A stretch of 47,400 bases of DNA from Bacteroides sp. (GTDB taxonomy: Bacteria; Bacillota; Clostridia; Lachnospirales; Lachnospiraceae). Location: contig JAMPBO010000013.1 of NCBI GenBank assembly GCA_023666705.1, positions 39,120 through 86,519 of the forward strand, written 5' to 3'. A model generated the notes under the pieces. It worked only from the letters and a program-made list of their open reading frames with translations. It did not search any database and was not told the DNA's origin. The translations under genes were made by a program, and so were the position numbers. The first letter of the stretch is position 1, and the number at the start of each line of letters is the position of its first letter. Of this stretch, positions 26,770 through 47,400 are shown piece by piece.

Positions 26770-26786
26770 TATTCATCACTCCTATT

Positions 26787-27380: not shown

Positions 27381-27391
27381 AGGCAACACCT

Positions 27392-31957: not shown

Positions 31958-31972
31958 AAATCCCATCCTCTC

Positions 31973-33091
31973 TTAATATACCTTTACGGTACCACTCTTG
32001 CTTCCTACGCTAAATCTTGGTGATGTACTGTCATCACCGCTTACCTTAAAGAATACAGGAACACTCGTCTTGTTATCGACTGTTACCTTTACTCCATTTG
32101 TATCAGAAGAATCAACTCTTGCAGATGACTCTACATAAATCTTAAGATCTGTTGATGTGATTTCCTTCTTATATGACTTGTCTCCGATTGCATAGGTTAC
32201 GAAATTCTTTCCATCTTCCTCTGCTATGGTAATCGTAAGTGTCTCAACACTGTTTTCTGCACTTGTCACATAAGTATCTGAACCGCCTGATGATACGATA
32301 ATACCATCTGTGTTGTCATTGTTTGCATTGTTAAGAACAATCTTGATATCGTTGTTTGAAGCAAGGGATGCTCCATTGTCCTCATCATATGCATATGTTG
32401 TTGGTGATGCTGCACCCTCTCCGCCAAGGAAGATATTTGCCACACCATTCTTTACATCTACAGAAATCGTATCCGCCTTTCTGTCGCCGCCTGTCACACA
32501 GTAAGCGTTCATGGATACGGAACCATTATATACATCTGCCTCTGCATCATATGTGATGTTCAGACTATCTATGTTCATTCTGTATTTGTAATTCATTACA
32601 TAATCAACATACTCCTTGATGCCTTCATAGGAGCCTGTATAAGTAATTGGAAATGCTGCCTTATATGCAGTATAGGCTGCTGCTGATGCTACATCTTCTG
32701 TTCCCTCTGTTTCCTCTGCTGATGCTACCGTACCAAGAGAATAGAACTGCTCCGGTCTTCCAAGACCTACTGAGGCAACATCAAACTGTCTGTCACCCTC
32801 ATCCTTATTGATTCCCTTTACGAACATAACAGAGATTTCCTGATCAAGTGTTGCAGGAAAAACTGTCAGCTGCGTCTGAAATGCTTCACGAAATTCTTTT
32901 GTCTCGTCTATGTATCTTTGCTTATCCTGTGACTTTGCATACAGCTCGTCATATCTTGCCTGAAGTGTATCTACTTCTGCCTGAAGTGTATCCACTTCCT
33001 CCATGTTTGGCTTATATACATATAAGTATACCCCGCCTACCATAACTACGGCTAGTAAAACTAACAGTATGATTGTATTTCCCTTTGACAT
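31973..33091 (-). CDS. PilO-like assembly protein with a long C-terminal extension
   Basis: A 372-aa single-pass membrane protein: N-terminal helix (about 6-27, ILLVLLAVVMVGGVYLYVY), a coiled coil (about 32-75, EVDTLQAEVDTLQARYDEL), then a ferredoxin-like PilO domain to about 205 (GSYEGIKEYVDYVMNYKYRM is diagnostic), and an additional about 165-residue beta-rich, Asp/Asn/Ser-rich region ending VGSKSGTVKVY. Classical PilO stops near 200 residues. AAGGAGG precedes the ATG. It lies directly after the PilM-PilN fusion, its expected partner in the inner alignment complex that links cytosolic PilB to the growing pilus. Confidence 0.75.
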   Translation of the reverse strand: MSKGNTIILLVLLAVVMVGGVYLYVYKPNMEEVDTLQAEVDTLQARYDELYAKSQDKQRYIDETKEFREAFQTQLTVFPATLDQEISVMFVKGINKDEGDRQFDVASVGLGRPEQFYSLGTVASAEETEGTEDVASAAAYTAYKAAFPITYTGSYEGIKEYVDYVMNYKYRMNIDSLNITYDAEADVYNGSVSMNAYCVTGGDRKADTISVDVKNGVANIFLGGEGAASPTTYAYDEDNGASLASNNDIKIVLNNANNDNTDGIIVSSGGSDTYVTSAENSVETLTITIAEEDGKNFVTYAIGDKSYKKEITSTDLKIYVESSARVDSSDTNGVKVTVDNKTSVPVFFKVSGDDSTSPRFSVGSKSGTVKVY

Positions 33092-33108
33092 ATATATATC
33101 CCTCCTTT

Positions 33109-34758
33109 TTACTCTGCCGATTCTGTCGTTTCTTCTGTTGCACCCGCCTCTGCTGCTGCAGCTTCTTCTTCCATCATCTGCAAGAGCTGGGCATACGGAT
33201 TTGTATAAACACAGGTTACGGTAAACTCATATGTTATGGTCTGCGTACCCTCATCTGTTCTTTTTGCAATACTTGCAACATAAGCATCTTCGATGCAGTC
33301 CATCGTCTTAAGCTGCACAATAAAATCTGCAATGGAGTCATAATCCGTTGATACACATGGCATAGATACACCTTCATTTGCTGAGCTAAAGCCTGACACA
33401 GTAACTGTAGTCGGTATCTTGTTCTCGAGCTGTGTAATAAACTCTCTCATGTTTTCGTTCAACTGATATGTTGCCATATACATAGCTGTGATATCTGCCA
33501 ACTCTGCCTGTGCCTGATCGTGCTCTGTAATAATCTGCTCAATATCAGCAACGCCTGCAATCTTGGTATTTAAGTTATCCCGCTCTGCTTCCTTATCAGA
33601 CTTTGCCTTGATGGAGTAGAACGCAAGACCTGCTGCTCCGATTGCTGCAATAACAACCAGTGCAACAAATGGCACCAAACTGATTTCTCCACTGGATCCC
33701 TTTGCCGCAGCCTCAATTGTCTCAAAGCCCATTGGGGCAAAAGCAGCACCAATTGGAGCCACCAGATATACAGGGTTATATACCTTAAGGTCAATGCTTG
33801 GGTCAAACTTGATATTGTAAAGACTGTCCATAATACGTACATTTACGTTTAACTGTATTTTGAACAATCCATCAATTCCTTTTATCAGTGCTCCATCACC
33901 TGTAAGGAACACATCATCAATCGGCTTATCCGGATTCTTTGATGCATAGTAGTCCATGACACGTCCGATGTTGTTAATCAGATACCGGAAAGCTCCCGTA
34001 GCTTCATTGTCATCAAAGTCTACGGTTATCATTCTGTCGTTTTGCAGTAATGTCATGGCAGTCGTCGCATCGACGCCCTTATCATCCATAACAACATTTA
34101 CAACAGAGTTTGTACCATATGGTACGGTTCTTTGAAGCAGAAGGTTGTCGCCCTGAACGATATTCAGTACGGTTGCCTCGCTTCCTAACTGGATTACCAT
34201 TGTTGTGGTATTTGCAGCAGTCTGTGTCTTGATGAGCTGGAGCATGGAGTTTCCAATGTAGTCCAGTGCCACAACATTCAGTCCTGCCATGGAAGCCAAG
34301 TCATAATAAGACTTCACAATCTGTGCAGGAGCTGCTACCGCAAGAACTCTTAACTGCTTGTTATTCTCCTCGTCTGTTACCGTTTCAAGAACAGAGTGAG
34401 AAACCACATAATCCTCTATATTGACAGGGAAATACTCCTGGGAGTTTGCATTTATGATTCCTCTGATTTTGTTCTCCTTTACGAAAGGTATAATAACCTC
34501 TCTGTTTACTATCTTTGTAGAAGAAAGAACGAATATTGCATTCTTGTTTGAAATTCCCCTACTGGACAGCTGGTCCCGAATAGCCGCCGCTATTCTGTCA
34601 GGCTCCTTGATGATACCATCCTCATAGGCATCCTCAGGAGTTTCAAATATGATTACATTGTGAATGTTCGTCTGCTTTTTCTGAGAAGCAGTCAACTCAA
34701 TAATTGTAATACTTTCATTTGTGATATCAATGGATAACACTTTATTGATTTTTGCCAT
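33109..34758 (-). CDS. pilM: PilM-PilN fusion protein
   Basis: A 549-aa protein joining two normally separate pilus assembly components. Residues 1-about 345 are the actin-like PilM fold (LSIDITNESITIIEL phosphate-1 motif, VVALDYIGNSML, VIQLGSEATVLNI, DDVFLTGDGALIKG). A transmembrane helix at about 360-383 is preceded by EISLVPF, reminiscent of the INLLP motif at the PilN N-terminus that binds PilM. A PilN-like coiled coil and ferredoxin fold follow (about 385-525), and the chain ends in an acidic Glu/Ala tail. GGGAGG precedes the ATG. The fusion would make a permanent PilM-PilN complex at the membrane. The first part of a PilMNO platform, with PilO-like protein next. Confidence 0.85.
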   Translation of the reverse strand: MAKINKVLSIDITNESITIIELTASQKKQTNIHNVIIFETPEDAYEDGIIKEPDRIAAAIRDQLSSRGISNKNAIFVLSSTKIVNREVIIPFVKENKIRGIINANSQEYFPVNIEDYVVSHSVLETVTDEENNKQLRVLAVAAPAQIVKSYYDLASMAGLNVVALDYIGNSMLQLIKTQTAANTTTMVIQLGSEATVLNIVQGDNLLLQRTVPYGTNSVVNVVMDDKGVDATTAMTLLQNDRMITVDFDDNEATGAFRYLINNIGRVMDYYASKNPDKPIDDVFLTGDGALIKGIDGLFKIQLNVNVRIMDSLYNIKFDPSIDLKVYNPVYLVAPIGAAFAPMGFETIEAAAKGSSGEISLVPFVALVVIAAIGAAGLAFYSIKAKSDKEAERDNLNTKIAGVADIEQIITEHDQAQAELADITAMYMATYQLNENMREFITQLENKIPTTVTVSGFSSANEGVSMPCVSTDYDSIADFIVQLKTMDCIEDAYVASIAKRTDEGTQTITYEFTVTCVYTNPYAQLLQMMEEEAAAAEAGATEETTESAE

Positions 34759-34806
34759 TCCTTATAGCCTCCCTCGCTAATCAGTGATTTTAAAATAATT
34801 GGTGGA

Positions 34807-35568
34807 TTATAAAAATGTCCACATACTCAGGTACCAGCTTACAAGCTGCTCACCCCATATCATTGCTATATATACGCCCATAGATAAATATGGACCAAAA
34901 GCCAACACCCGGTCAGCTTTCTTAACAGCCATCAATGTCAGATGTATCACCGAACCAAGCACACATCCGGACAAAAATGCTATAATATTAAGCTGCCAGC
35001 CCAATAGTAAGCCGGTTGCCGCCATAAGCTTTATGTCACCACCACCCATCGCCCTTCCCCGCGAAACAAGAAGCAGCAATAATAAAAAACCGCTGACCGC
35101 AAATAAACCGATTACATACTGACTCCAGTTACCAATATCGGTAACAAGTCTAATCAGACCTAAAAGAAAAATAAAAATGTTAAATCCCGGTGGGATTTCC
35201 TTTGTACGCCAGTCTATAAAGCTAAGCGCAATCAAGGCAGAAGTACACAGGCAGTAAAGTATCGTATCGATTGAAAGTCCGCATGCGAGGTACAAGACGG
35301 TGTACAGCAATCCATTTAGTCCTTCTACTATTGGATACTGACACGATATATGCACTTTACAATACCTGCACTTTCCACCTAAAAACAAATAACTGAATAA
35401 TGGAAACAGATCATACCACGCAAGGGTATGTCCGCACTCCATACAATGAGACCTCTCTCTCGCCAGACTCTCCTTCAACGGAGTACGTAGTATCACAACA
35501 TTCAGGAAACTTCCGATTACAATGCCATATATAAAAAATATAACAGAAAAAATCAGTGTTTCCATCAT
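34807..35568 (-). CDS. pilD: prepilin peptidase / N-methyltransferase (A24 family)
   Basis: A 253-aa polytopic membrane protein. The N-terminal cytosolic part holds the two zinc CxxC pairs (CMECGHTLAWYD and CRYCKVHISCQYP), and the aspartyl protease residues are in SFIDWRTKEIP and MGGGDIKLMA. It cleaves prepilins after Gly and methylates the new N-terminus, so it should process the pilins encoded on both sides. The start has no strong ribosome site (CTGGAAAC before two consecutive ATG codons). The hairpin at 35609-35632 separates it from pilA, and both features should keep its level well below that of the pilin. Confidence 0.93.
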   Translation of the reverse strand: MMETLIFSVIFFIYGIVIGSFLNVVILRTPLKESLARERSHCMECGHTLAWYDLFPLFSYLFLGGKCRYCKVHISCQYPIVEGLNGLLYTVLYLACGLSIDTILYCLCTSALIALSFIDWRTKEIPPGFNIFIFLLGLIRLVTDIGNWSQYVIGLFAVSGFLLLLLLVSRGRAMGGGDIKLMAATGLLLGWQLNIIAFLSGCVLGSVIHLTLMAVKKADRVLAFGPYLSMGVYIAMIWGEQLVSWYLSMWTFL

Positions 35569-35608
35569 GTTTCCAGGGTCCCTTCTTAAGATTTTAAATA
35601 CAGCTAAA

Positions 35609-35632
35609 TTCCACCTGGCGAATCAGGTGGAA
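35609..35632 (-). terminator. hairpin after pilA, partial terminator or mRNA stabiliser
   Basis: A perfect 9-bp GC-rich stem (TTCCACCTG / CAGGTGGAA, 6-nt loop) lies 22 bp after the pilA stop. On the minus strand it is followed by only TTTAG, so termination should be incomplete. That would leave abundant pilA mRNA and lower levels of the assembly genes downstream. Confidence 0.7.
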
Positions 35633-35653
35633 CTTAACTATACTATAATCAGC

Positions 35654-36202
35654 TTACTGATAATTCTTGTTGATTTCAGGAACAAGCTCATAACCGCCTG
35701 TTACTGCTCCAGTAGAAGCGTTAATTGTAGGCTCAGTGTTAGTACCAAGTATAACCTTAACCTGACCAGTTCCTGTACATGCAACATACCATGTAGTTGG
35801 TGCACCTATTGTTGAGTCAGCAGCTTTCTTATACTTAATCTTTGGAACGCTCTCACTGAGGTTCTTGAAGATCTCGTCTACAGCCTCTGCCTGTGTTGTT
35901 GTTGCGTTAGAAACCCATGTAACATTAGTAACTGCAACACCTGCTGCAGAAGTAGAACCAGGAGTAAGCTTAAGAACAGGCTTGTTAGTCGTGCTTGTCA
36001 AGGATGCATAAGTATCCTCATTTGACATAGCTGTCTCAACTGCAGTCTTGATTGTCTTAGCAGCTGAAAGATCATTTGACTTTCTTGACTTATCAATGTA
36101 TCTGATAAGTGCTGGTGCAATTGCTCCTGCAAGGATAGCCATAATAGCTATAACAATGATAAGCTCTACGAGTGAGAAACCTTTGTTGTTTGTTTTCTTC
36201 AT
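35654..36202 (-). CDS. pilA: major type IV pilin
   Basis: A 182-aa prepilin. The short leader MKKTNNKG is followed by FSLVELIIVIAIMAILAGA: Gly-1, Phe+1 and Glu+5 are all present, with the hydrophobic N-terminal helix extending to about 55. The head is small and rich in Thr, Ala and Val (TTNKPVLKLTPGSTSAAG), with a single Cys. AAGGAGAG lies before the ATG. Length, an optimal ribosome site and the flanking hairpin all fit the major subunit. It is processed by PilD encoded next and polymerised by PilB and PilC. A 13-bp palindrome and a GC hairpin lie in its leader. Confidence 0.92.
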   Translation of the reverse strand: MKKTNNKGFSLVELIIVIAIMAILAGAIAPALIRYIDKSRKSNDLSAAKTIKTAVETAMSNEDTYASLTSTTNKPVLKLTPGSTSAAGVAVTNVTWVSNATTTQAEAVDEIFKNLSESVPKIKYKKAADSTIGAPTTWYVACTGTGQVKVILGTNTEPTINASTGAVTGGYELVPEINKNYQ

Positions 36203-36231
36203 AAATAAATCTCTCCTTTTCTTTTTATTTT

Positions 36232-36281
36232 TGACATAATGTCATATATATGATATCAACCCACCGTCCTCGCCCAGTGGG
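36232..36281 (-). promoter_or_regulatory. palindrome and hairpin in the pilC-pilA gap
   Basis: TGACATAATGTCA (36232-36244) is a perfect 13-bp palindrome, and CCCAC / GTGGG (36260-36264 and 36277-36281) can form a GC hairpin. No good -10/-35 pair was found in this 91-bp gap, so an RNA processing or protein-binding site is as likely as a promoter. Confidence 0.35.
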
Positions 36282-36293
36282 AGAAATCCGTTT

Positions 36294-37499
36294 TTAGTAG
36301 CTGTCGATAGCGTCGTACATACTAAGCATTGGTGAGTAAATTGCAAGTACGATACCGCCGACGGTAACACCCATGACAACGATAATCATAGGCTCCATCA
36401 TGGCTGTCAGTGCATCAGTTGCATTGTTTACTTCCATTTCATAGTAATCTGCAACCTTATCCATCATATCCTCAATGTTACCTGTTTCCTCTCCAATCTT
36501 TGTCATCTGTGACAACATCGGTGGAAAAATCTCCATATCCCTTATCGGCTTTGAAAGCGGCACACCCTTGGCAACCTGTACCTTGGCATCCAGCAAGCCT
36601 TCTCTTATAATCTTGTTATTCTGCATCCTTGCAACCTGCTCGATGGCATCCATCAGCGGAACACCTGAACCCATCAATGTACTTAAAGTTCTTGCAAATG
36701 TCGCTGCCGCCGACTTGATGGTAAGGTTTCCAAACAATGGAGCCTTAATTGCTATGGATGAGTAAAGCTGTGCTCCCGTGTTTGTCTTGCCATACTGTAC
36801 AAGTGCAAATACAATTGCCGCTATGACAAGGGCAAGTACAATGCCGTGGTGCTGCAGGAAGCTACTGAAATCAACCAGCATCTGCGTTGGCTTTGGAAGC
36901 TCTGAACCCAAATCCTCAAACATGTCTGCAAATGTAGGAACAACTCCTACAAGAAGTACAACGACTACCGCTATAACGACAACCAGTATAACGATAGGAT
37001 ATGTCATGGCACCCTTGACCTTCGACTTTAACTTGTTTGCATTTTCAAAGTGGGTAGTCAGTCTGTCAAAGGATGTCTCCAAACTACCTGAAATCTCACC
37101 TGCCGCAACCATGTTGATAAATATCGGTGGGAACACCTTAGGGTTTAGCCTGAACGCATCTGCCAAGGTACCACCCTTTTGTACATATCCCTGTGCTTCC
37201 CTGATTGCTCTTTGGAGCGTCTTGTTGTCAAGCTGCTCGCCCATCATTTCAAGTGCCTGTATGATTGTAACACCTGCGTTCAACACGGCACCAAACTGTT
37301 TACAGAAGACTGCAAGATCCTGATCCTTGACCTTCTTGCCGCCGCCCTTCTTACCGCCGCTGCCTTGTTCTTTAATTTCCTGAACGATAAAGCCCTCAGA
37401 CTTCAGCTTTTCTCTTGCCTTGTCCTCACTTACGGCCTCCACGGTACCCTTCTTGGGTTTGCCGCTTTTGTCCATAACCTTGTAATTATATTGTGCCAT
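36294..37499 (-). CDS. pilC: pilus inner-membrane platform protein (GspF family)
   Basis: The start is at 37499 (MAQYNYKVMDKSGKPKKG), with GGAGG seven bases upstream; the longer frame to 37538 is not supported. A 401-aa protein with a N-terminal extension and two T2SSF domains (about 65-190 and 270-395), each starting with the family pattern (FCKQFGAVLNAGVTIIQALE and FARTLSTLMGSGVPLMDAIE). Three transmembrane helices are seen (about 168-190, 215-240, 370-395). PilC anchors the PilB and PilT motor to the membrane. A separate promoter lies upstream (37668-37696). Confidence 0.93.
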   Translation of the reverse strand: MAQYNYKVMDKSGKPKKGTVEAVSEDKAREKLKSEGFIVQEIKEQGSGGKKGGGKKVKDQDLAVFCKQFGAVLNAGVTIIQALEMMGEQLDNKTLQRAIREAQGYVQKGGTLADAFRLNPKVFPPIFINMVAAGEISGSLETSFDRLTTHFENANKLKSKVKGAMTYPIVILVVVIAVVVVLLVGVVPTFADMFEDLGSELPKPTQMLVDFSSFLQHHGIVLALVIAAIVFALVQYGKTNTGAQLYSSIAIKAPLFGNLTIKSAAATFARTLSTLMGSGVPLMDAIEQVARMQNNKIIREGLLDAKVQVAKGVPLSKPIRDMEIFPPMLSQMTKIGEETGNIEDMMDKVADYYEMEVNNATDALTAMMEPMIIVVMGVTVGGIVLAIYSPMLSMYDAIDSY

Positions 37500-37667
37500 C
37501 TCAATTCCTCCGACCCAAATTTTTTTGATAAGAAACATCGTTCCCTACCGCACACTTCTTCACGAAGCCTGCTAAAACCGAACTACAGTATCAAAGACAT
37601 TTTGTCCTTTTATAAAATCCTTATTTTTTAAAAATGAACAAAATGTAAACAATATGTATCTAAATTA

Positions 37668-37696
37668 ATAATACAACATTTCTTAATATTATGCAA
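37668..37696 (-). promoter_or_regulatory. internal promoter of the pilus operon, before pilC
   Basis: On the minus strand TTGCAT (37696-37691), a 17-bp spacer and TATTAT (37673-37668) lie in the AT-rich 331-bp gap between pilT and pilC. The start near 37661 would give a leader of about 160 nt. The remainder of the gap has imperfect TACAAT/ATTGTA inverted repeats near 37790-37825 but no gene. Confidence 0.6.
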
Positions 37697-37830
37697 TAAA
37701 AATAAATATTTTAAATATATTTTAGGCAATATTACCAATATGCAAAGGACTCGAATGACGCAAACCCTATCTATTGTGTTAATTTTCCTACAATTTGTTT
37801 GTTCAATTCTACCTTATATTGTAATTTACC

Positions 37831-38883
37831 TTACATTTGTTTCTTCATTGCTGACTGATCCTGTGCGTAAATGAGTGCATTGTCTCTTGTAATTGTGCCA
37901 TTTCTGTAAAGCTCCATAATGAAGTCATCCATGGTAACCATTCCCTGTGCCCTGCTTGTCTGTATGGAGGACTGAATCTGGTGCGTCTTCGCCTCACGAA
38001 TCAGGCTTCGGATCGCAGAGCTTGCAAGCATAACCTCAAAGGCTGCAACTCGTCCGTTTCCGTCGGCAGTCGGTATCAGTGACTGTGAGATAACTCCCTC
38101 CAAAACCATGGAGAGCTGTATACGTGTCTGTTGCTGCTGATGCGGCGGGAATACGTCAACAATACGGTCGATGGTTGATGCCGCACCAATTGTATGGAGT
38201 GTGGAGAAAACCAAGTGACCGGTCTCAGCAGCGGTTATGGCTGTAGAGATTGTCTCCAGATCTCTCATCTCTCCTACCAGTATGATATCAGGGTCCTCAC
38301 GAAGTGCAGCTCTAAGTGCATTTGCGTAGGATAGTGTATCCATACCGATTTCTCTTTGGTTTACAACCGACTTTTTGTGCTTGTGCACATACTCGATCGG
38401 GTCCTCAAGTGTTATAATGTGGTCTGTAAGATTTTCGTTTGCTTTGTTGATAATGGAAGCAAGCGTTGTTGATTTACCAGAGCCTGTAGGTCCTGTAACA
38501 AGTACAAGTCCTCTTTTCTTTTTGTAGAGCTGTACAACCGAATCCGGTATACCCAGCATATCCGGTCTCGGAATCTGCGTATCTACCTTTCTGTATGCAG
38601 CAGCCATGTTACCCCTGTCCATGAAGACATTTACACGGAAACGTCCTGTCTCTGCTGATGCATATGAGAAATCGACCTCGCCCCTTTCCTTAAGAATTGC
38701 TTTGTGTCTCTCATGCATGGTTGAGCCGATTGCCTCCGCAACATCCGCCGGTGCAAGCGGCGGAACCTCAACCTCAGTGAGCTTTCCATGTATACGAAGC
38801 TTCGGTGGTATGCCGCAAGCTATATGTACATCGGATGCATTTTGCTCCACCGCAAACGCAAGTAACTCCTTCATATCTAACAT
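37831..38883 (-). CDS. pilT: type IV pilus retraction ATPase
   Basis: A 350-aa secretion ATPase of the PilT type. The N-terminal PAS-like domain starts LLAFAVEQNASDVHIACG, followed by the RecA-like core with Walker A VTGPTGSGKST, Asp box (ITLEDPIEYVH), Walker B-like DPDIILVGEMRDLETIS and the His box (VFSTLHTIGAAS). It ends with the short C-terminal helices that follow AIRSLIREAK in PilT proteins. AAAAGGAGA precedes the ATG. It powers pilin depolymerisation and hence twitching or DNA uptake. Its presence implies retractile, not static, pili. It lies 78 bp after pilB. Confidence 0.95.
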   Translation of the reverse strand: MLDMKELLAFAVEQNASDVHIACGIPPKLRIHGKLTEVEVPPLAPADVAEAIGSTMHERHKAILKERGEVDFSYASAETGRFRVNVFMDRGNMAAAYRKVDTQIPRPDMLGIPDSVVQLYKKKRGLVLVTGPTGSGKSTTLASIINKANENLTDHIITLEDPIEYVHKHKKSVVNQREIGMDTLSYANALRAALREDPDIILVGEMRDLETISTAITAAETGHLVFSTLHTIGAASTIDRIVDVFPPHQQQQTRIQLSMVLEGVISQSLIPTADGNGRVAAFEVMLASSAIRSLIREAKTHQIQSSIQTSRAQGMVTMDDFIMELYRNGTITRDNALIYAQDQSAMKKQM

Positions 38884-38961
38884 TATATACCCATCTCCTT
38901 TTCGTGTATTTTGCTTTTATTTGTTGTGAATATTATATCTCTGGTTTCACTGCCTGTTATA

Positions 38962-40683
38962 TTAATATTCGTCACCTGTCTCGTATGTTATCTTTTTCAT
39001 CTCTGAAAGTGATGTAATGCCGTTCAAAACATGTTTTGCCGCACCCATCTTAAGGGTAAGCATACCTTCTTCCAATGCCTGTTTTTCGATGACATCCGCC
39101 GTTGACCCCTTTGCAATAACCGCCTGAAGCGATTTTGATACCGGCATCATCTCGTATACACCGATACGTCCCGAATACCCTGTATCTCCACAAAGTGTAC
39201 AGCCTGCTGGCTCATATACGATGACATCCTCGTCCATATCCTGTACGCCGAGTATCACCTTTTCGTCATCCTCTGCAAGTCTTGCCTGTTTGCACGAACC
39301 GCAAAGCCTTCTTACAAGTCTTTGTGCGATAACCCCCACAAGTGCGTCACCTGCAACGTATGGTTCAATTCCCATGTCTATGATACGGGTAACCGTAGAT
39401 GCAGCCGAGTTTGTATGGAGTGTGGATACAACCAAGTGTCCCGTGATAGCCGCCTGAACCGCGATACTTGCAGTCTCGCCATCACGAATCTCTCCTATCA
39501 TAATGATGTCAGGGTCCTGACGAAGTATGGAACGAAGTGCCGCGGCAAATGTCATCTCCGCCTTGACGTTAACCTGTACCTGATTGATACCATCGATATT
39601 TGCCTCCACAGGGTCCTCAACCGTGATAATGTTTACATCCTCTGTGTTAAGCTCACTGAGCGATGTATACAGTGTTGTTGATTTACCGGAACCTGTAGGT
39701 CCTGTAACAAGTATGATTCCATGCGGGTTACTGAGGATACCGTCAAATACCTTGAGCTCTTCCGGTCCAAATCCAAGGGCACTCTTAGGCTTTGTAAGAC
39801 CATCCTTGGAGGTAAGTCTCATAACCGTCTTCTCGCCATATACGGTTGGGAGCATGGAAACACGGACATCATACTCCCGTCTGTCAACCATGATGGTGAT
39901 ACGTCCATCCTGTGGTTTTCTTTTCTCGGCGATATCCATACCGCCTATGATTTTGATACGGGCACTGATTGCAGATAACAGACTGTAATCATATGTCATA
40001 ACCTGCTTCAAGGCACCGTCTATCCTGTATCTTACACGAACACTCATCTCCAACGGTTCAATATGTATATCAGATGCTCTTTGTCTGACTCCGCCCTCGA
40101 TAATCTGTTTTACAAGAAGAACGATAGGAGAATTTTCGATATCTTCGTTTAATGCTTCTTCTTCTGTTTCGGTTATGCCGTCAGCCTCACGCTCTTTTCT
40201 GTACTGCTCTGCAGCCTCCATTGCCTGTGCATTACCATAGTATTTTCCAATTGCCTCATTCAGGTCATCCTCCATGGCGAGCAACGGTTCTACCTGCGTG
40301 TTGGTTGCGATACCGATGTCATCCACTGCATTTAAATCCATCGGGTCAACCATTGCAACCCTGAGTACGTTCGGATTCATTTCATCATAGCCGATCGGTA
40401 TTGCCTTATACTTGTTGACAAGGTTCTCAGGAACAAGCTTCAGCACCTCTTCATCAAGCTTACATGCCTTAAGCTCTATGAAATCAATACCCATCTGAGT
40501 TGTAAGAACGGTAACAAGGAGGTCCTGACTGATCAGTCCAAGCTGCATGATGACATTACCAATCCGGCCGCCGTTTTCCTTTTGGTAGGCAAGTGCTTCC
40601 TGAAGCTCTTCTTCCGTTATTGCTCCTGCTTCCACAAGCAAATCACCTACACGAATTTTCTTTCTTCCACTAGTAATTCGCAT
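38962..40683 (-). CDS. pilB: type IV pilus assembly ATPase
   Basis: The start at 40683 (MRITSGRKKIRVGDLL) follows GAGAGGG; the longer frame to 40704 has no site. A 573-aa hexameric ATPase with an N-terminal MshEN domain (about 15-150, RVGDLLVEAGAITEEEL; such domains can bind cyclic di-GMP), then the core with Walker A VTGPTGSGKST, Asp box, Walker B DPDIIMIGEIRDGET and a zinc-binding tetracysteine region (RLCGSCKQA and GCTLCGDTGY). It drives pilin polymerisation. First gene of the pilus operon, with an extended -10 promoter directly upstream. Confidence 0.95.
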   Translation of the reverse strand: MRITSGRKKIRVGDLLVEAGAITEEELQEALAYQKENGGRIGNVIMQLGLISQDLLVTVLTTQMGIDFIELKACKLDEEVLKLVPENLVNKYKAIPIGYDEMNPNVLRVAMVDPMDLNAVDDIGIATNTQVEPLLAMEDDLNEAIGKYYGNAQAMEAAEQYRKEREADGITETEEEALNEDIENSPIVLLVKQIIEGGVRQRASDIHIEPLEMSVRVRYRIDGALKQVMTYDYSLLSAISARIKIIGGMDIAEKRKPQDGRITIMVDRREYDVRVSMLPTVYGEKTVMRLTSKDGLTKPKSALGFGPEELKVFDGILSNPHGIILVTGPTGSGKSTTLYTSLSELNTEDVNIITVEDPVEANIDGINQVQVNVKAEMTFAAALRSILRQDPDIIMIGEIRDGETASIAVQAAITGHLVVSTLHTNSAASTVTRIIDMGIEPYVAGDALVGVIAQRLVRRLCGSCKQARLAEDDEKVILGVQDMDEDVIVYEPAGCTLCGDTGYSGRIGVYEMMPVSKSLQAVIAKGSTADVIEKQALEEGMLTLKMGAAKHVLNGITSLSEMKKITYETGDEY

Positions 40684-40723
40684 ATACACATTCCCTCTCA
40701 TCATAATATAGTTAGTTGTTTAT

Positions 40724-40783: not shown

Positions 40784-42214
40784 CTACACAATCTCCAAAT
40801 CGTCCCTGTCACGGAGCATATATTTTTTTAACGGCGTCAGGCTTGCAATCAGATAAAGCAGACCGCCGAAAATTGCAGTAAATCCGCTTCCTGTCGTAAA
40901 CAAAAATATATCGCTGTGGACAACGCCCGTCATCGGATTGTATACAAACAGCATGGATACCACAAACGCAACGACAAGGCATCCAATTCCTACAAAATTA
41001 AATCCATCCGTAAATTTATATGCATCATGCCCGTCCAAGCCGTACGCCGACTTTAGGGACAGTTTTCTCTTTTTTACAATCAGGTAATCTACCAGCGTCA
41101 TACCGATGATAGGTCCCTGTATGTATGCGGCAAGTGATATAAATGCACCAAAATGATCATTTACACCGCCCCAGATTGTAAGCCCGCTGACATACACCAT
41201 TGCAATGATAACCAAAAGCTTATAGCTGACCTTCGGCATGCCGCTCTTTACAATCATACAGTTTACATATGAGCCGGTTCCCTGCGTACCTACATTTGCA
41301 AAAGCAACCATAAGCAGGCTTAATAAGGCAAAGCCCGAACCACAAAGGGTAGACAGCATTGCCGTCGGGTCACTTTCGTATATTCCCGTCTTAACATACA
41401 TGGCAAATGCCATGACGCCGCCTGCTGCCACAAAGAAAGGAGCAACGATGCCATAGGAAATTGCCGTACCCCAAAAGCCGCTTCTCTCTGACCTTGCAAG
41501 CCTCGGCATTACAAGTGCCTGTGTTGACCATGAAAATGCAAATGCTACATTTCCCTCTGCCGACAGCATAAAATTGACAAGGGAAGAATTGTCATTGTCA
41601 ATAACCGGCTTTACTGCCGCAATATCTGATAAAGGTACTGCCGTAAAGCAAAGTCCTACGACGATGGCTCCGACAATGAGCAGTGCCGTTACCAAAAATC
41701 TGTTTGTCCATTTTATTACATCAGGTCCGCCTAAAGCAATCAGTGTTCCAAGTACGACACAGAGTGTTCCCAATACCGGATTCCAAATATCAGGATTTAA
41801 GTGTAATCCAAAATTCCCCGCAAGGTTAATCATGGATGAGGAAAACAGATTTGCCGCAACTGCATACCAGCCGAAATTTGCCAGACTGATTACCGTTGCA
41901 ATCACTGCAACACCCTTTGCCCCAAGCACGGAGCGTAACCAGATCCACAAATCAATTCCGTACCGCACGGCAAACAATACCGGAATACACTCAATAATAA
42001 TCCATACGATATTGAAGCAGAAAATATTAATTAGCAATTGCTTAAAGGTCAAAAACTGTGCCCCATATGCTCCCTGTGTGTAGCACCATGTTGCAATGGC
42101 AAAGCCGCTTGTTGAAAGGAGCAAATCCATAAAGGAATACTGTCTGTCCTTTTTCAGCATCGGCACAACACCTGTAACCGTTTCCTGTCTTATGTAATCT
42201 GCATTTTTTCCCAT
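40784..42214 (-). CDS. NCS1-family (purine/cytosine/allantoin permease-like) transporter
   Basis: A 476-aa polytopic membrane protein starting at 42214 (MGKNADYIRQETVTGVVP), with its ATG overlapping the stop of the small upstream gene (TAATG). About twelve helices are present, with the NCS1/CodB pattern (DLLLSTSGFAIATWCYTQGA in helix 1, IAVIATVISLANFGWYAVAANLF, FMLSAEGNVAFAFSWSTQAL). Family substrates are nucleobases, thiamine precursors and similar small molecules. Its location directly after the Lic-type choline kinase gene suggests import of choline or another amino-alcohol, or of a nucleobase; this is inference. Haemophilus LicB is a choline permease of a different family. Confidence 0.85.
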   Translation of the reverse strand: MGKNADYIRQETVTGVVPMLKKDRQYSFMDLLLSTSGFAIATWCYTQGAYGAQFLTFKQLLINIFCFNIVWIIIECIPVLFAVRYGIDLWIWLRSVLGAKGVAVIATVISLANFGWYAVAANLFSSSMINLAGNFGLHLNPDIWNPVLGTLCVVLGTLIALGGPDVIKWTNRFLVTALLIVGAIVVGLCFTAVPLSDIAAVKPVIDNDNSSLVNFMLSAEGNVAFAFSWSTQALVMPRLARSERSGFWGTAISYGIVAPFFVAAGGVMAFAMYVKTGIYESDPTAMLSTLCGSGFALLSLLMVAFANVGTQGTGSYVNCMIVKSGMPKVSYKLLVIIAMVYVSGLTIWGGVNDHFGAFISLAAYIQGPIIGMTLVDYLIVKKRKLSLKSAYGLDGHDAYKFTDGFNFVGIGCLVVAFVVSMLFVYNPMTGVVHSDIFLFTTGSGFTAIFGGLLYLIASLTPLKKYMLRDRDDLEIV

Positions 42215-42408
42215 TACTGTATCACCCCTGTCATGCAAAGTGCAATCAGTACCGCACTTACCAAAAATCCCGCAATCATAACGATTACATCCGCCTTGTT
42301 AATTTTCTTTGGAAATTCATAATCAGGCTGTTCCATTTCATTCAGCCGTTTTTCTGTCTCAGATGCAATCAGCTCCTCAAGAGACAATTCCTGTTCGTCC
42401 TTACTCAT
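42214..42408 (-). CDS. 64-aa single-pass membrane protein next to the NCS1 transporter
   Basis: A charged, Glu-rich N-terminal part of about 38 residues (LSLEELIASETEKRLNEMEQ), then one membrane helix at about 39-62 (ADVIVMIAGFLVSAVLIALC). AGGAGG lies five bases before the ATG, 14 bp after the licCA-like stop. Its stop overlaps the transporter start, so the two are translationally coupled. This layout suggests an accessory or regulatory subunit of the transporter. I do not recognise the family. Confidence 0.8.
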   Translation of the reverse strand: MSKDEQELSLEELIASETEKRLNEMEQPDYEFPKKINKADVIVMIAGFLVSAVLIALCMTGVIQ

Positions 42409-42421
42409 AGCTTCCTCCTAA

Positions 42422-44194
42422 TTATTTTTCAAAATATTTTTTTGCTTCCCTGCTGTACGTCTTTGTGTACTTGTACCAAATGTACAGATATTCGCCAACG
42501 TCATTTCCAACACTGTTTTGGTAAATCGCCCACAAAAACCAATAATATGCCGCTGCCGCTATGTAGGTATAAAAATACCGTTTTTCCTTTGTGTCAGCCT
42601 CATGCTCCAAATACAGATTGATTATCCAATCGGCTTCCTCCTTCGTATAATCCGAGCAGGCGATAAACGTGCCAATATCGCCGCCTCTGTAAGCCATGCC
42701 GGAATATTCCCAGTCAATGAGGTACATCTTCCCCGAAGCATCAATAAGAAAATTAGGGTCGTATGTATCACAATGACAGAGACATTTTTCATTATCCTCC
42801 TTAATTATGGACCACTGTAGATGCTCCATTGTATCGTGCAGCTCCTGCATATCCTCAAACTGGTTCTGCCCCCGTTCCTCAAGGCGTTCCTCAAACTTAC
42901 GGATTTCCTCCCATATATCAAATGTAAATTCAGTCGCTATGTTACATGTATGGAGCCTTCTTACCATTCGTACCGCTTCCGCTACCTGCTCCCTGTTATG
43001 ATAATCAAGGGTTTGGACATTATCTATATAATGTGAAATCTTCCAGCCCTCCTTTTCATCCATACAGATAAACGTATCATCAAGTCCCAGCTTTTTTGCA
43101 ATTTCCAGCGAGGTTTTTTCGCTTGTCCGATTGATGAAATTGGAGGTTCCCACGCCCGGATGTCTGTACACATACTCCTTTCCATTTACGGTAAAACGGA
43201 AAGAAAAATTTGTAAGACCCTTTTTAATAGGAACAATATTTGTTATGTTTTCTTCCTTTACATCCAACGCAGTACAGATATTGGTAAATATTTTTGAATT
43301 GGCATTTTTTAAATACTTATCATCAAAGTCCCGCAGCTCCTCCAAGGAATCAAACTCCTTGATTTTATCAGCATCATATTTTCGGATGTATAAATCAAGC
43401 TCCTTAATATGGCGTATATAAAGATCCTCCCAAAGCTGCTGTTTCGTCATGGGGTCGTCATATTCATTTCTTAAAATCCTGACAAACCTTTTGCTAAACT
43501 CCTTATCAAAATACACATGTCCAAGCATATACCAGGAGGATTGTCCACCTACGGTTACCTTTGTTATCCGTCCTTTATTATTGAAGGACAGACAATATTC
43601 ATCCGTTTTAGCCGCCTCGTATACAGCGGCATAATACGCCCGATACACATACGGTTCAAAGGGATTTTCAGTAAAGTAGTTGTCCGAGGAGCATATATAT
43701 GTATTGTCCAGCCTGTCAGCCACACGAATTAATGTGGACGTATTATTATATCTATAATAGTCATCATTCATGACAAGCGTTACATTATATTTATCCTCCA
43801 AATAAAAAAGCTGTTCCTTCATATAGCCCACAACAACCGTTATATCAGTAATACCTGCCGCCTGAAGCTGCTTAATTTCCCTCTCAATGAGTATCTCCCC
43901 TTTTACCTTAAGCAATGCCTTTGGCTTTTCATATGAAAGAGGGACAAACCTGCTGCTCATGCCTGCCGCCATGATAACCGCATTTTTAACCTTATATGGC
44001 TCCATGGCCTCATATCCCGCAGGGGAAATCTGCATGTCACTGTTTAAAAGTCCTGCTTGTGTTAATTCCTTTACCGCCTCATTAATCTTCCCCAAGGAAT
44101 ATCCCGCTTCCCCTGCAAGGGTTCTCTGCGTAAGCTTATCATCCTGCTTTTGGATTACAGTATAAAGTATTTTAAATTGTGTTTCTGTCAGCAT
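42422..44194 (-). CDS. HTH - CTP:phosphocholine cytidylyltransferase (LicC) - choline kinase (LicA) fusion
   Basis: A 590-aa three-domain protein. Residues 1-about 63 form a MarR-like winged helix (ETQFKILYTVIQKQDDKLTQ, ISPAGYEAMEPY). Residues about 70-300 are a nucleotidyltransferase of the LicC type (AVIMAAGMSSRFVPLS, KPKALLKVKGE, CSSDNYFTENPF). Residues about 305-590 are an APH-fold choline/ethanolamine kinase like LicA, with the Brenner motif CHCDTYDPNFLID and LIDWEYSGMAYRGGDI. Kinase then cytidylyltransferase would turn choline (or ethanolamine) into CDP-choline in one polypeptide; the HTH may sense or autoregulate. AGAGAG is only a weak ribosome site. The leader holds an inverted TTGCACAA repeat shared with the gene upstream in the locus. 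Confidence 0.88.
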   Translation of the reverse strand: MLTETQFKILYTVIQKQDDKLTQRTLAGEAGYSLGKINEAVKELTQAGLLNSDMQISPAGYEAMEPYKVKNAVIMAAGMSSRFVPLSYEKPKALLKVKGEILIEREIKQLQAAGITDITVVVGYMKEQLFYLEDKYNVTLVMNDDYYRYNNTSTLIRVADRLDNTYICSSDNYFTENPFEPYVYRAYYAAVYEAAKTDEYCLSFNNKGRITKVTVGGQSSWYMLGHVYFDKEFSKRFVRILRNEYDDPMTKQQLWEDLYIRHIKELDLYIRKYDADKIKEFDSLEELRDFDDKYLKNANSKIFTNICTALDVKEENITNIVPIKKGLTNFSFRFTVNGKEYVYRHPGVGTSNFINRTSEKTSLEIAKKLGLDDTFICMDEKEGWKISHYIDNVQTLDYHNREQVAEAVRMVRRLHTCNIATEFTFDIWEEIRKFEERLEERGQNQFEDMQELHDTMEHLQWSIIKEDNEKCLCHCDTYDPNFLIDASGKMYLIDWEYSGMAYRGGDIGTFIACSDYTKEEADWIINLYLEHEADTKEKRYFYTYIAAAAYYWFLWAIYQNSVGNDVGEYLYIWYKYTKTYSREAKKYFEK

Positions 44195-44223
44195 ATGCTT
44201 CTCTCTATACTTTCTTATATATT

Positions 44224-44260
44224 TTGCACAAAAAAGCTTTTATTTTAGCTGTTTGTGCAA
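44224..44260. promoter_or_regulatory. inverted repeat TTGCACAAA / TTTGTGCAA in the licCA-like leader
   Basis: Perfect 9-bp arms at 44224-44232 and 44252-44260, 19 bp apart, enclosing an inner AGCT / AGCT pair, so the RNA could form a 13-bp stem. It ends 30 bp before the ATG. The same core occurs upstream of the nucleotidyltransferase-PLP fusion gene (46881-46934), which points to shared control. It could also act as an end-of-gene hairpin for the methyltransferase. Confidence 0.6.
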
Positions 44261-44285
44261 TGGTTAAATTTCAGTACCTTGTTTT

Positions 44286-45002
44286 TTAATTATCCTTGCA
44301 CAGATAACAGTCAAATACAAATTGATTATTCCAGTAAATCTCATTTTGAGGCTTTTTAATCACACATTTACACTTTGCCTTTTCCGCAAAATTCTGAAAC
44401 ATCTCCTTCGTGTAAAAGGTCTTATCCAAGCCTTTGTATTTTTCATCATAATTTTCTACAGAGGCTCTCCTATATTCTAAATGCTCCTCTTTTCTGCTTT
44501 CATCATGTATCTCTGTAATTACAACCATCTTATCTGCTTTTTGGTACATCCTGTCCAAAACCTGCATTCCGTATTCTGCATCCTGAAAATACTGAAAAAC
44601 GCTGTCCGCCAACACCAAATCGTATTTTTCTTCAACAGAAACCGAAAGTGCCTCGCCACACAGTAAATCTGACGAATCTACGACAGTTTTTGCAGCCTTA
44701 ATTATATTTTCTGAATAATCGATGCCGCCAAGCCTTTGAATGTTCTCAAGCTGCCGGAACATATACAGATTAACACCGCTTCCACAGCCGACCTCATAAA
44801 CGCTTGTTAGCGGCTTTTTGCAAAGCTCCTTGATAAACCTTGTTCTCTCAAGCCACTCCTCATAAAAGCCTTCATAATAATTGTCTACATCCTGCGTATC
44901 AAATCCATTCGCCTTTTTCAAATTACAAAACATCTGAAATATATCATCTGTATCTGCAAGCTTTGTTTCCCTGTTTTTCCAAATCTTATCCCAATGATTC
45001 AT
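44286..45002 (-). CDS. class I SAM-dependent methyltransferase
   Basis: A 238-aa Rossmann methyltransferase. Motif I is VYEVGCGSGVNLYMF at about 68-82, the acidic motif II is GGIDYSENIIKAA, and motif IV is DLVLADSVFQYF. The C-terminal part (CKCVIKKPQNEIYWNNQF) is not diagnostic. The gene starts 17 bp inside the end of the nucleotidyltransferase-PLP fusion gene with GGGAGG upstream, so the two are coupled. Its substrate is probably related to the product of that fusion; N-methylation of a phosphoethanolamine-type group is a possible but unproven role. Confidence 0.85.
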   Translation of the reverse strand: MNHWDKIWKNRETKLADTDDIFQMFCNLKKANGFDTQDVDNYYEGFYEEWLERTRFIKELCKKPLTSVYEVGCGSGVNLYMFRQLENIQRLGGIDYSENIIKAAKTVVDSSDLLCGEALSVSVEEKYDLVLADSVFQYFQDAEYGMQVLDRMYQKADKMVVITEIHDESRKEEHLEYRRASVENYDEKYKGLDKTFYTKEMFQNFAEKAKCKCVIKKPQNEIYWNNQFVFDCYLCKDN

Positions 45003-46815
45003 TTACAAACCTCCCATTTAATATCTCTTTCAATGCGAAAACCAGCTTTTCATTATCTTCATGATTCCGGATTGCTGCCCGTATATATTCTCCTTTCTCT
45101 ATCTTAGGCGATAAATCCTTCGCCAAAATATTATACTTGACAAGCAGATCCGATACCAGCTCCTTTGCAGTTTTGCCATTCACAAGCTCCAGCATTATGT
45201 AATTTGCCTGTGAAGGAATTACCCTTATGGCATCTATTGTTTCCAGCTTTTTCACGAAGCTTTTTCTTTCCTCTCTCAGGAGCCGCAATCCATCTGTATA
45301 ATCACCTTTATATTTTTCTGCAATCTGCATATAAAACTCTGCAAATGAATTAATATTCCATATTGCCACTTCCTTTTTCAACCTGGCAATCAATTCTTTA
45401 TTTCCAGATGCAAGCACGCCCAAACGCAAGCCCGGAATACCATATGATTTTGAAATGCTTTTTATTGCTGTCAAATGTGGATTTTCATATAATATCTCCT
45501 GTCTGATTATTGTTGCGTCTGCTTCCTCCGCAAAATCAATAAAGGACTCATCTATTACAATGTTAATATTCTTATTTCCCGCCCATGAAATTAATTTTAA
45601 AATATTTTCTTTTGCAATATAATTTCCTGATGGATTGTCAGGATTAATGACAAGAAGATTATCAATCGCCTTATCATCAAAATAATTTATAACATCATCT
45701 GCCGTATAATAAAAATCCCTGTTTTCAGGAACAAACACCTCAAGCTGCTCTGTATATCTGTTTGCATATTCTTCAAAGGTCGGTTTTATGATTCCGGTTT
45801 TGCCATGCAAAAGACCCATAAAAGCCTTAATCAGCTCAGCCGCACCATTTCCTACTACGATATCCTCCGGATGCAAATTAAAATTTTTAGCAGCAAGCAG
45901 CACATTTACCTCCATACCTGACGGATATTGCATCAGCAGCTTATCAAAGGACAGCTTCATTTCATCAATTAACCTTTGCGGTGGAAAAAATGGATTTACC
46001 AAATAGCAAAAATCTATCATCTGCGGGTATCTCCAATAGCCCCCATATCTTTTTTGCAGCAGACGAACACATTGGTCATTTTCTGCAAACATAGTCGACG
46101 CTATATCCAAATCCTGAATATCGTCTATCTCATACCATTTTTCCCCGTTCAAACGCCTTGCTTTAATTTCAGGGTGGGCAAGCATGGTAATAACCTTCAA
46201 CACCTGCTCATAGTACTCATTATTACCCGAGGCTGTTATATATGCCTCCAAAAACGGTACATAATGCGTTTTTGAAAAATTTCTGCTGAATTTATATACA
46301 TTTACGGTTTTATAATAATTACCTGTCTCTCCAAATCTAAATCCGTTTCCGGAAATAAATTCCTCAATGGTATCGTCATCTGATAACCGCATACAGGTTC
46401 CGTCCATCCAGCTTTCGTATTTATCTACCAACGCTAAGGTTTCCCGCTTATCATTTATCAGTCCAAAAAGAACCTCGTCCTCAAAAATAATGTCCGATTC
46501 AAACAATAGCGTGTCCTCCCTGCACAGCCACTCCTTTGCCAAATGCAGTGAATATATATTGTTGGTACTGTTATATACGGAATTGTTTATGTAAATAATC
46601 GGCGTTGTAATATTAAGTGTTGTAATAAATTCTATCAGCTTTTCAGCCTGATATCCCACTACAATAACAATTCTTGATAAACTGCACTGTTCAAGCTGCC
46701 TTAAAAGCCTTTCAATCAGCGATATACCATTTACCTCTACCATGCATTTTGTATTATTCTTTGTCAGCTCCTTTAACCGCTTTCCCATTCCGGCAGCCAA
46801 AATAATCCCCTGCAT
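44986..46815 (-). CDS. nucleotidyltransferase - CobD-like PLP enzyme fusion
   Basis: A 609-aa bifunctional protein. Residues 1-about 240 are a sugar/choline-phosphate nucleotidyltransferase (IILAAGMGKRLKELTKNNTK, VVGYQAEKLIEFI, LLFESDIIFED). Residues about 250-605 are a fold-type I PLP enzyme; the Schiff-base Lys lies in KSISKSYGIPGLRLGVLASG. Closeness to CobD (threonine-phosphate decarboxylase) is seen in NINIVIDESFIDFAEE, IPGLRLG, IWNINSFAE and EYIRAAIRNHEDNEKL. CobD relatives remove the carboxyl of O-phospho-threonine or O-phospho-serine, so the fusion could make aminopropanol-phosphate or ethanolamine-phosphate and activate it with CTP. A HisC-type transaminase is the alternative. AAGGAGG precedes the ATG. 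It leads the Lic-type locus. Confidence 0.82.
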   Translation of the reverse strand: MQGIILAAGMGKRLKELTKNNTKCMVEVNGISLIERLLRQLEQCSLSRIVIVVGYQAEKLIEFITTLNITTPIIYINNSVYNSTNNIYSLHLAKEWLCREDTLLFESDIIFEDEVLFGLINDKRETLALVDKYESWMDGTCMRLSDDDTIEEFISGNGFRFGETGNYYKTVNVYKFSRNFSKTHYVPFLEAYITASGNNEYYEQVLKVITMLAHPEIKARRLNGEKWYEIDDIQDLDIASTMFAENDQCVRLLQKRYGGYWRYPQMIDFCYLVNPFFPPQRLIDEMKLSFDKLLMQYPSGMEVNVLLAAKNFNLHPEDIVVGNGAAELIKAFMGLLHGKTGIIKPTFEEYANRYTEQLEVFVPENRDFYYTADDVINYFDDKAIDNLLVINPDNPSGNYIAKENILKLISWAGNKNINIVIDESFIDFAEEADATIIRQEILYENPHLTAIKSISKSYGIPGLRLGVLASGNKELIARLKKEVAIWNINSFAEFYMQIAEKYKGDYTDGLRLLREERKSFVKKLETIDAIRVIPSQANYIMLELVNGKTAKELVSDLLVKYNILAKDLSPKIEKGEYIRAAIRNHEDNEKLVFALKEILNGRFVNESLG

Positions 46816-47117: not shown

Positions 47118-47400
47118 TTACTTATCCGATTGAGTAATGTATTTTTGTGCATCCTCAGGGGAGAGGGCAAATTTATTGATAAGGGCTTCCGTGATTTTGT
47201 CATTGGAAAAACCGTTTTCTTTCAGAAGAGAAATTGTAGTAACAATTGTTGTTATAATGCCTTCGCTACGCCCTTGCTCACGACCGATGTCAATACCCTC
47301 ACTGCGACCTTGCTCGCGTCCTTCCTCATATCCGATTTCCTTTAAGGTTTTCTCGTGAAGCTCGGCATCATATTCAAATATACTCATGGCGATTACCTCC
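47118..47400 (-). CDS. C-terminal part of an Rpn-family nuclease (continues past window)
   Basis: The frame stays open to the right edge (VIA before MSIFEYDAELHEKTL), so this is probably the C-terminal about 93 residues of a longer protein. An ATG at 47387 does have GGAGG eight bases upstream and could also be used on its own. The segment has MSIFEYDAELHEKTLKEIGY, then two copies of a GREQGRSEGIxx unit, then a helical end (ISLLKENGFSNDKITEALI, LSPEDAQKYI). Such Gly/Arg/Glu repeats followed by this tail are the standard C-terminus of Rpn/PD-(D/E)XK transposase-like proteins in Firmicutes. It is a different subgroup from the copy at 18717-19853. Confidence 0.75.
   Translation of the reverse strand, partial: EVIAMSIFEYDAELHEKTLKEIGYEEGREQGRSEGIDIGREQGRSEGIITTIVTTISLLKENGFSNDKITEALINKFALSPEDAQKYITQSDK

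Follow-up and report, generated by a model that had tools for sequence, protein, structure and literature searches.

What would a bacterium make with a protein in which a LicC-type cytidylyltransferase is joined to a pyridoxal phosphate (PLP)-dependent domain resembling decarboxylases? The question is raised by five minus-strand open reading frames (ORFs) at positions 40784–46815 of a 47,400-nucleotide stretch of contig JAMPBO010000013.1 (positions 39,120–86,519 of the forward strand; assembly GCA_023666705.1), deposited as Bacteroides sp. and placed by GTDB in the Lachnospiraceae. We call the whole stretch the window. The nucleotidyltransferase (NTase)–PLP fusion is followed by a methyltransferase, an HTH-LicC-LicA protein (HTH, helix-turn-helix), a 64-residue protein and an NCS1 transporter. 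We propose, with a probability of about 0.7, that the fusion is a bifunctional L-serine-O-phosphate decarboxylase/CTP:phosphoethanolamine cytidylyltransferase that feeds surface decoration, accompanied in this locus by N-methylation and choline salvage. The fusion is laid out as follows (aa, amino acids):

44986–46815, minus strand: NTase–PLP fusion gene, 609 aa
46081..46815, minus strand: cytidylyltransferase domain of the fusion, LicC/PntC type (aa 1–245), Pfam NTP_transf_3
45013..46050, minus strand: PLP decarboxylase-like domain of the fusion, SMUL_1544/CobD type (about aa 256–601), presumed PLP lysine K456

In the proposed scheme, whose substrates, order of steps and end product we infer from family placement, conservation and gene associations, the C-terminal PLP half would decarboxylate O-phosphoserine to phosphoethanolamine, and the N-terminal NTase half would combine this with CTP to give CDP-ethanolamine, a route needing no ethanolamine import, ethanolamine kinase or phospholipid. 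Transfer of the phospho-aminoalcohol to a surface polymer would fall to a CDP-dependent enzyme, LicD or a TagF-like PF04464 protein, whose genes lie elsewhere in this genome. The methyltransferase, whose gene overlaps that of the fusion, would add one or more N-methyl groups to the phosphoethanolamine unit, perhaps as far as phosphocholine, and HTH-LicC-LicA would also make phosphocholine, from choline brought in by the NCS1 transporter and the 64-residue protein.

The fusion is a real, recurrent gene and not a product of chance. Both domains occur in one gene at 42% identity or more in 20 of 150 Lachnospiraceae genomes, a count that takes in this genome and G065, whose fusion runs off the contig, and leaves out G104, where a match over 1–544 has 25% identity and a stop. 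Within the genus the fusion is present in 8 of 37 genomes, again including this one. A pattern scan of genome contigs found at least 569 stretches that encode a relative; 80 of these were examined, and every one spans both domains at 57–71% identity. The 80 are mostly from Bacillota, with some records labelled Treponemataceae, Sphaerochaetaceae or Actinomycetaceae. A preliminary description of this DNA had called both the NTase–PLP and the HTH-LicC-LicA fusions unusual, a view that does not hold within the family, where relatives of the latter are found in 30 of 150 genomes (E 1e-60 or better, some matches being single-domain). We found no paper describing the NTase–PLP fusion in the open-licence literature, which is not proof of absence. 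For the analyses below, gene neighbourhoods were searched in six frames within 6 kb of 98 distinct fusion loci (numbered with the prefix L; duplicates L067 and L105 removed). The fusions of L067 and L105, both Lachnospiraceae records, are identical to those of L032 and L037, which come from the window's own family, in keeping with its placement in the Lachnospiraceae. Residue counts and the fusion tree use 96 loci, and the survey of sugar clusters additionally left out L102 and L108, where the frame had been missed.

Pfam and NCBIfam assign the fusion an NTP transferase domain and a class I/II aminotransferase fold, the top NCBIfam family being CobD, below its cut-off. When a profile of the PLP half is compared with solved structures, the best match is 6OUX (232.6 bits), titled decarboxylase SMUL_1544, followed by 3FTB (labelled HisC; 169 bits), CobD 1LC5 (136 bits), 3FKD (116 bits) and the HisC 8BJ1 (116 bits). 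A CYLxNPY segment is common to the PLP half and SMUL_1544 and is absent from CobD. Three residues that we take to be the PLP lysine (K456), the arginine binding the PLP phosphate (R464) and the C-terminal arginine corresponding to CobD Arg337 (R579) are conserved in 94, 96 and 94 of the 96 fusions, respectively, with two gaps at the last. The lysine is replaced by Glu in L063 and by Gln in L134, proteins that are either inactive or affected by sequencing errors. By sequence, then, the PLP half groups with the SMUL_1544/CobD decarboxylases rather than with HisC or 2-aminoethylphosphonate (AEP) transaminases, as the preliminary description had supposed; a firm grouping with either of the latter would by its own criterion have refuted it. 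Two observations weigh against a decarboxylase assignment: in structural comparison the lead over HisC is small, and at the position of CobD Arg323, taken as a mark of the decarboxylase class, the fusion has lysine (Lys566; Lys in 92 of 96, Arg in two, gaps in two). SMUL_1544 acts on L-serine-O-phosphate, and Cj1436 of Campylobacter is presumably a CobD/HisC-like protein. According to PMC11800397, Cj1436 converts serine phosphate to ethanolamine phosphate for the Campylobacter capsule.

The NTase half is matched equally well by LicC (1JYK) and PntC (6PD1), both scoring 71 bits across some 235 positions. According to PMC6697681, two glutamates of the Treponema denticola enzyme Tde-PntC, Glu104 and Glu196, lie near the primary amine; their counterparts in LicC are Asp105 and Asp192, and LicC has a 2700-fold preference for phosphocholine over phosphoethanolamine. 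At the LicC aspartate positions the fusion has glutamate: E106 is present in all 96 loci and E203 in 95 of them, those with a methyltransferase included. Because this PntC-like pair points to a primary amine, phosphoethanolamine is a likelier substrate of the NTase half than phosphocholine. The idea that a single enzyme combines decarboxylation with CTP activation finds support in the sequence comparisons, with phosphoethanolamine as the likelier activated compound. Positions 155 and 158 of the NTase half at first seemed to covary with the neighbouring partner enzyme (permutation z 7.5 and 4.9), but we dropped this after tree-aware pairing (median p 0.5 and 0.625).

Other products of the fusion can be envisaged. 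The PLP half might use a different substrate, converting threonine phosphate to 1-amino-2-propanol phosphate, as CobD does, or dihydroxyacetone phosphate to serinol phosphate by transamination, with the NTase half making the matching CDP-aminoalcohol. CobD and SMUL_1544 tie in structural Z, the change from Arg323 to Lys566 would fit such a shift, and Cj1437 provides a precedent for the transamination (PMC11800397), but the sequence profile places SMUL_1544 96 bits above CobD. Everything downstream (CDP-amine, N-modification, LicD) would follow the same logic, so gene context does not tell the substrates apart, and on balance we consider a different substrate unlikely. The glutamate pair is equally what would be expected of an analogue of the T. 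denticola PntC-AEPT protein, in which the PLP half would be an AEP transaminase and the NTase half would make CMP-AEP for phosphonate decoration. Such an NTase–PLP precedent in Treponema, invoked in the preliminary description, is real (6PD1/6PD2), but there the PLP part belongs to the class V transaminases, whereas that of the fusion is class I/II and CobD-type. The top whole-chain Foldseek match is indeed 6PD2, but the superposition is poor (root-mean-square deviation 22). Phosphoenolpyruvate mutase (PF13714) matches exceed the cut-off in 4 of the 20 fusion genomes and in none of the other 16, this one included; because its best match here has 27.2 bits against a cut-off of 31.5, a phosphonate pathway is unlikely, and we regard the analogue as very improbable. 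Similarly hard to credit is a housekeeping HisC or cobamide CobD joined by chance to a sugar nucleotidyltransferase. Profiles of both families match the PLP half, but far below their equivalog cut-offs (CobD TIGR01140, 165.2 bits against a curated 290.55; HisC, 139 against 276.6), and separate proteins matching the PLP half alone are present in at least 11 of the 20 fusion genomes. Gene context adds to the scores in disfavouring this explanation, many fusion loci being clusters of LicD, TagF-like or glycosyltransferase genes.

In the proposed scheme the product of the fusion would go to a CDP-dependent transferase. The absence of LicD from the window, remarked on in the preliminary description, is borne out among its ORFs, and a search of the fusion neighbourhoods finds LicD within 6 kb in 39 of the 98 loci. 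A TagF-like PF04464 gene is found in another 22, giving 61 loci with one or the other and none with both (hypergeometric P = 2.0e-6, not corrected for relatedness); the overlap was also zero in an earlier count of 96 loci. Among the 53 loci with the full 6 kb on both sides, 38 have one of the two. On the fusion tree, where 55 loci of the 96-locus census carry such a gene, the type changes between LicD and TagF-like 13 times. In the same census YidC-domain proteins lie near 20 fusions, 16 of which have a TagF-like gene and none LicD. The TagF-like set depends somewhat on the cut-off (L033 was in a first count only, L072 and L099 in the six-frame count only), and the calls for L057 and L075 are weak (E 7e-12 and 3e-10). 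Pfam was run on L106, L111, L129 and L057 only for this set, confirming L057, and on L115, L114, L049, L134 and L131 for LicD, besides the genome search.

This genome has a single LicD (PF04991), on contig C22, the window lying on C4. On contig C5 (L144, 4531–11531) a PF04464 gene is followed by two tandem related genes that combine a YidC (60KD_IMP) domain with a sulfatase/LtaS-like region, the sulfatase match of the first reaching 24.1 bits where the cut-off is 25. Comparable sets lie beside the fusion in other genomes, and the YidC–sulfatase fusion is odd in itself. Several further domain combinations were seen at fusion loci. One protein in L129 (7852–9882) carries both YidC and PF04464 domains directly before the fusion and methyltransferase; in L049 (9417–11141) LicD is fused to a methyltransferase domain and its gene overlaps the NTase–PLP fusion gene; and in L114 (12886–16633) two proteins encoded in tandem contain parts of LicD and choline-kinase type (Pfam, first only), beside a methyltransferase, the fusion and LicD.

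The gene that overlaps the fusion by 17 nt in the window belongs to one of three unrelated families of possible amine-modifying enzymes found beside fusions:

44286–45002, minus strand: S-adenosylmethionine-dependent methyltransferase, 238 aa, Pfam Methyltransf_25/12/31/11

Within 6 kb of the fusion an opine dehydrogenase is encoded in 26 of the 98 loci, an OCD protein in 12 and a window-type methyltransferase in six, our own included. Within 400 nt and on the same strand are 26 of the 26 Octopine_DH (PF02317)-type genes, 9 of the 12 OCD/mu-crystallin (PF02423)-type genes and all six methyltransferase genes, the family names resting on NCBIfam and on Pfam checks of one or two members per family. 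The PF02317 type is rare elsewhere: 20 fusion genomes yielded three matches, from two of the genomes and with one match next to the fusion, and 14 control genomes yielded none. Partner labels cluster on the tree of 96 fusions (28 changes against a shuffled mean of 35.5; the minimum is 3), and sister fusions can have different partners, as in L075 (OCD) and L092 (opine dehydrogenase; support 99). Methyltransferase loci have neither of the other two (P = 0.066), and opine dehydrogenase and OCD occur together once, in L101 (P = 0.18); because of these values we claim adjacency of the partners to the fusion, not mutual exclusion.

We consider it probable that the methyltransferase acts on the nitrogen of the aminoalcohol. 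Its model is confident (predicted local distance difference test 90.3) and its nearest folds, many of them N-methyltransferases, are tied: a nonribosomal peptide synthetase methylation domain scores 17.7, NTMT1 17.3 and TylM1 17.2, and the phosphoethanolamine methyltransferases 6WLF (17.2), 4KRG and 5WP4 (both 16.7) are level with other folds. Foldseek ranks enzymes that are not N-methyltransferases, such as ChlM, first, and the sequence profiles match plantazolicin methyltransferases (E 4.5e-8), HvrF (4.9e-5) and, more weakly, others. The family is rare, present at E 1e-20 in 1 of 150 family genomes and 2 of 391 class genomes, our own included in both. N-[(R)-1-carboxyethyl]ethanolamine phosphate, an O-polysaccharide constituent known from Proteus, would be the expected product of an opine-type condensation of pyruvate with phosphoethanolamine, which may link it to the opine dehydrogenase partner. 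A search of literature listings with a few terms found no named genes for it.

Sugars or other polymer parts, rather than the aminoalcohol nitrogen, might instead be the targets of the methyltransferase, opine dehydrogenase and OCD enzymes. Many fusion loci are sugar-biosynthesis clusters, the methyltransferase fold is generic, and the other class-level relative of the methyltransferase, in G307, stands without a fusion in the 20 kb retrieved there. Against this, 41 of the 44 gene–locus cases lie within 400 nt of the fusion on the same strand, all three families include enzymes able to act on amines, and N-[(R)-1-carboxyethyl]ethanolamine phosphate is listed among O-polysaccharide constituents in a legend and glossary of a review (PMC9630907). 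Sugar or polymer targets therefore seem to us somewhat unlikely. With modification of the nitrogen as the preferred reading, we tentatively suggest, at somewhat less than even odds, that the fusion is the CDP-ethanolamine core of a portable surface-chemistry module. Both its companions would be exchangeable: an enzyme that modifies the nitrogen, through N-methylation, N-carboxyalkylation of the opine type or a reductive step of the OCD type, and a transferase, which would be either LicD or TagF-like and YidC-linked.

The remaining genes of the block are the following:

42422–44194, minus strand: HTH-LicC-LicA, 590 aa, HTH_24 + NTP transferase + choline kinase
44045..44191, minus strand: winged-helix (HTH_24) domain, N-terminus of HTH-LicC-LicA, Pfam PF13412, E 6.5e-8
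43298..44005, minus strand: LicC-like CTP:phosphocholine cytidylyltransferase domain of HTH-LicC-LicA, 1JYK, E 6.9e-39
42425..43288, minus strand: LicA-like choline kinase domain of HTH-LicC-LicA, Pfam Choline_kinase, E 1.2e-19; 4R77 choline kinase, E 3.2e-31
42214–42408, minus strand: 64-aa membrane protein, putative NCS1 small partner (from its conserved position)
40784–42238, minus strand: NCS1-family transporter, 484 aa, Pfam PF02133

All five genes lie where the preliminary description placed them, and Pfam and NCBIfam confirm its domain assignments. The 64-aa ORF overlaps the NCS1 ORF by 25 nt and has no family match in Pfam or NCBIfam, but its conservation indicates that it is a real gene: homologues stand before NCS1 at 51–56% identity in two other genera (L174, L175) and at 89–98% in sister species L204–L206, the match in one species covering 51 of the 64 residues. 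In G109 and G022 an NCS1 homologue (75%) directly precedes HTH-LicC-LicA, with a 64-aa homologue before NCS1. The 17 LicC-LicA neighbourhoods compared also include some with BCCT transporters, confirmed by Pfam in L177 and L188, and some with choline-binding-repeat proteins, confirmed in L178 and L187. Because NCS1 and the 64-aa protein are conserved beside LicC-LicA, where other loci have these proteins, they probably form a choline importer in place of LicB, and the three genes would constitute a conserved choline-salvage set. An amidohydrolase-type protein lies between a LicC-like gene and HTH-LicC-LicA in L062 (13768–15339) and L058 (12971–14539; Pfam, L062 only).

The whole five-gene block is kept at 84–99% identity in three of the seven other fusion-bearing genus members (L204–L206), where a TagF-like gene lies 7–8 kb from the fusion. 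The other four (L202, L203, L207 and L208) show no methyltransferase in the stretch fetched around the fusion; the nearby transferase is LicD in L207 and TagF-like in L202 (weak, E 1e-13), L203 and L208. That the locus joins salvage to de novo synthesis, as initially suggested, is largely upheld as an interpretation, the parts occurring together here and in the three sister species. In L205 (10760–11656) NCS1 is followed by an additional LicA-like kinase that the window does not have.

Type IV pilus genes (PilB, PilT, PilC, prepilins, PilD and PilM/PilN; window 25813–40704) begin 80 bp past NCS1 on the same strand. Pilus genes also follow the methyltransferase in L111, so that two of the six methyltransferase loci have them and none of the other 90 loci does (p = 0.003); we treat the association as chance because the three sister species with the block lack pilus genes there. 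At the end of the pilus run is an 1851-aa ORF with a signal-like N-terminus (20239–25794), and at 47118–47399 there is a weak, sub-cut-off match to FliH and the C-terminal part of an Rpn-family transposase.

If our interpretation of the fusion is correct, these anaerobes could derive CDP-ethanolamine directly from serine biosynthesis without ethanolamine kinase, choline or a phospholipid donor, and their surface phospho-aminoalcohols need not rely on host choline or ethanolamine. The module, if real, would provide a choline-independent route to N-methylated phosphoethanolamine in this window and, at other loci, a genetic route to decorations of the N-(1-carboxyethyl)ethanolamine phosphate type, with candidate genes for the listed (R)-isomer. 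The swapping of three unrelated amine-type enzymes beside one core would then predict a set of zwitterionic surface groups.

How does this arrangement compare with known systems? Among solved structures the PLP half is closest to SMUL_1544 (6OUX), and both SMUL_1544 and Cj1436 share with the proposed activity ethanolamine phosphate as product; these two differ in standing alone, serving norcobamide or capsule amide synthesis with no fused cytidylyltransferase (for Cj1436, presumably). Tde1415 PntC-AEPT (6PD1/6PD2) has the same layout, a LicC-type cytidylyltransferase N-terminal to the PLP enzyme that supplies it with a primary-amine phospho-substrate, and the same glutamate pair in the amine pocket, but combines these with a class V AEP transaminase and a phosphonate product, where the fusion has a CobD/SMUL_1544-type domain. 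The closest solved relatives of the opine dehydrogenase partner are octopine dehydrogenase (3C7A) and CENDH (1BG6), enzymes of a type that uses free amino acids, whereas the substrate proposed here is phosphoethanolamine. Kent and colleagues are said to have described in 2004 a LicC-LicA fusion, LicCA, in T. denticola. Like the Lic-1 pathway (LicA, LicB, LicC and LicD), the block brings a choline kinase, a CTP:phosphocholine cytidylyltransferase and a probable importer together in one cluster, but here LicC and LicA form one protein with an N-terminal HTH domain, the importer would be NCS1 with its 64-aa companion, and LicD is encoded elsewhere in the genome.

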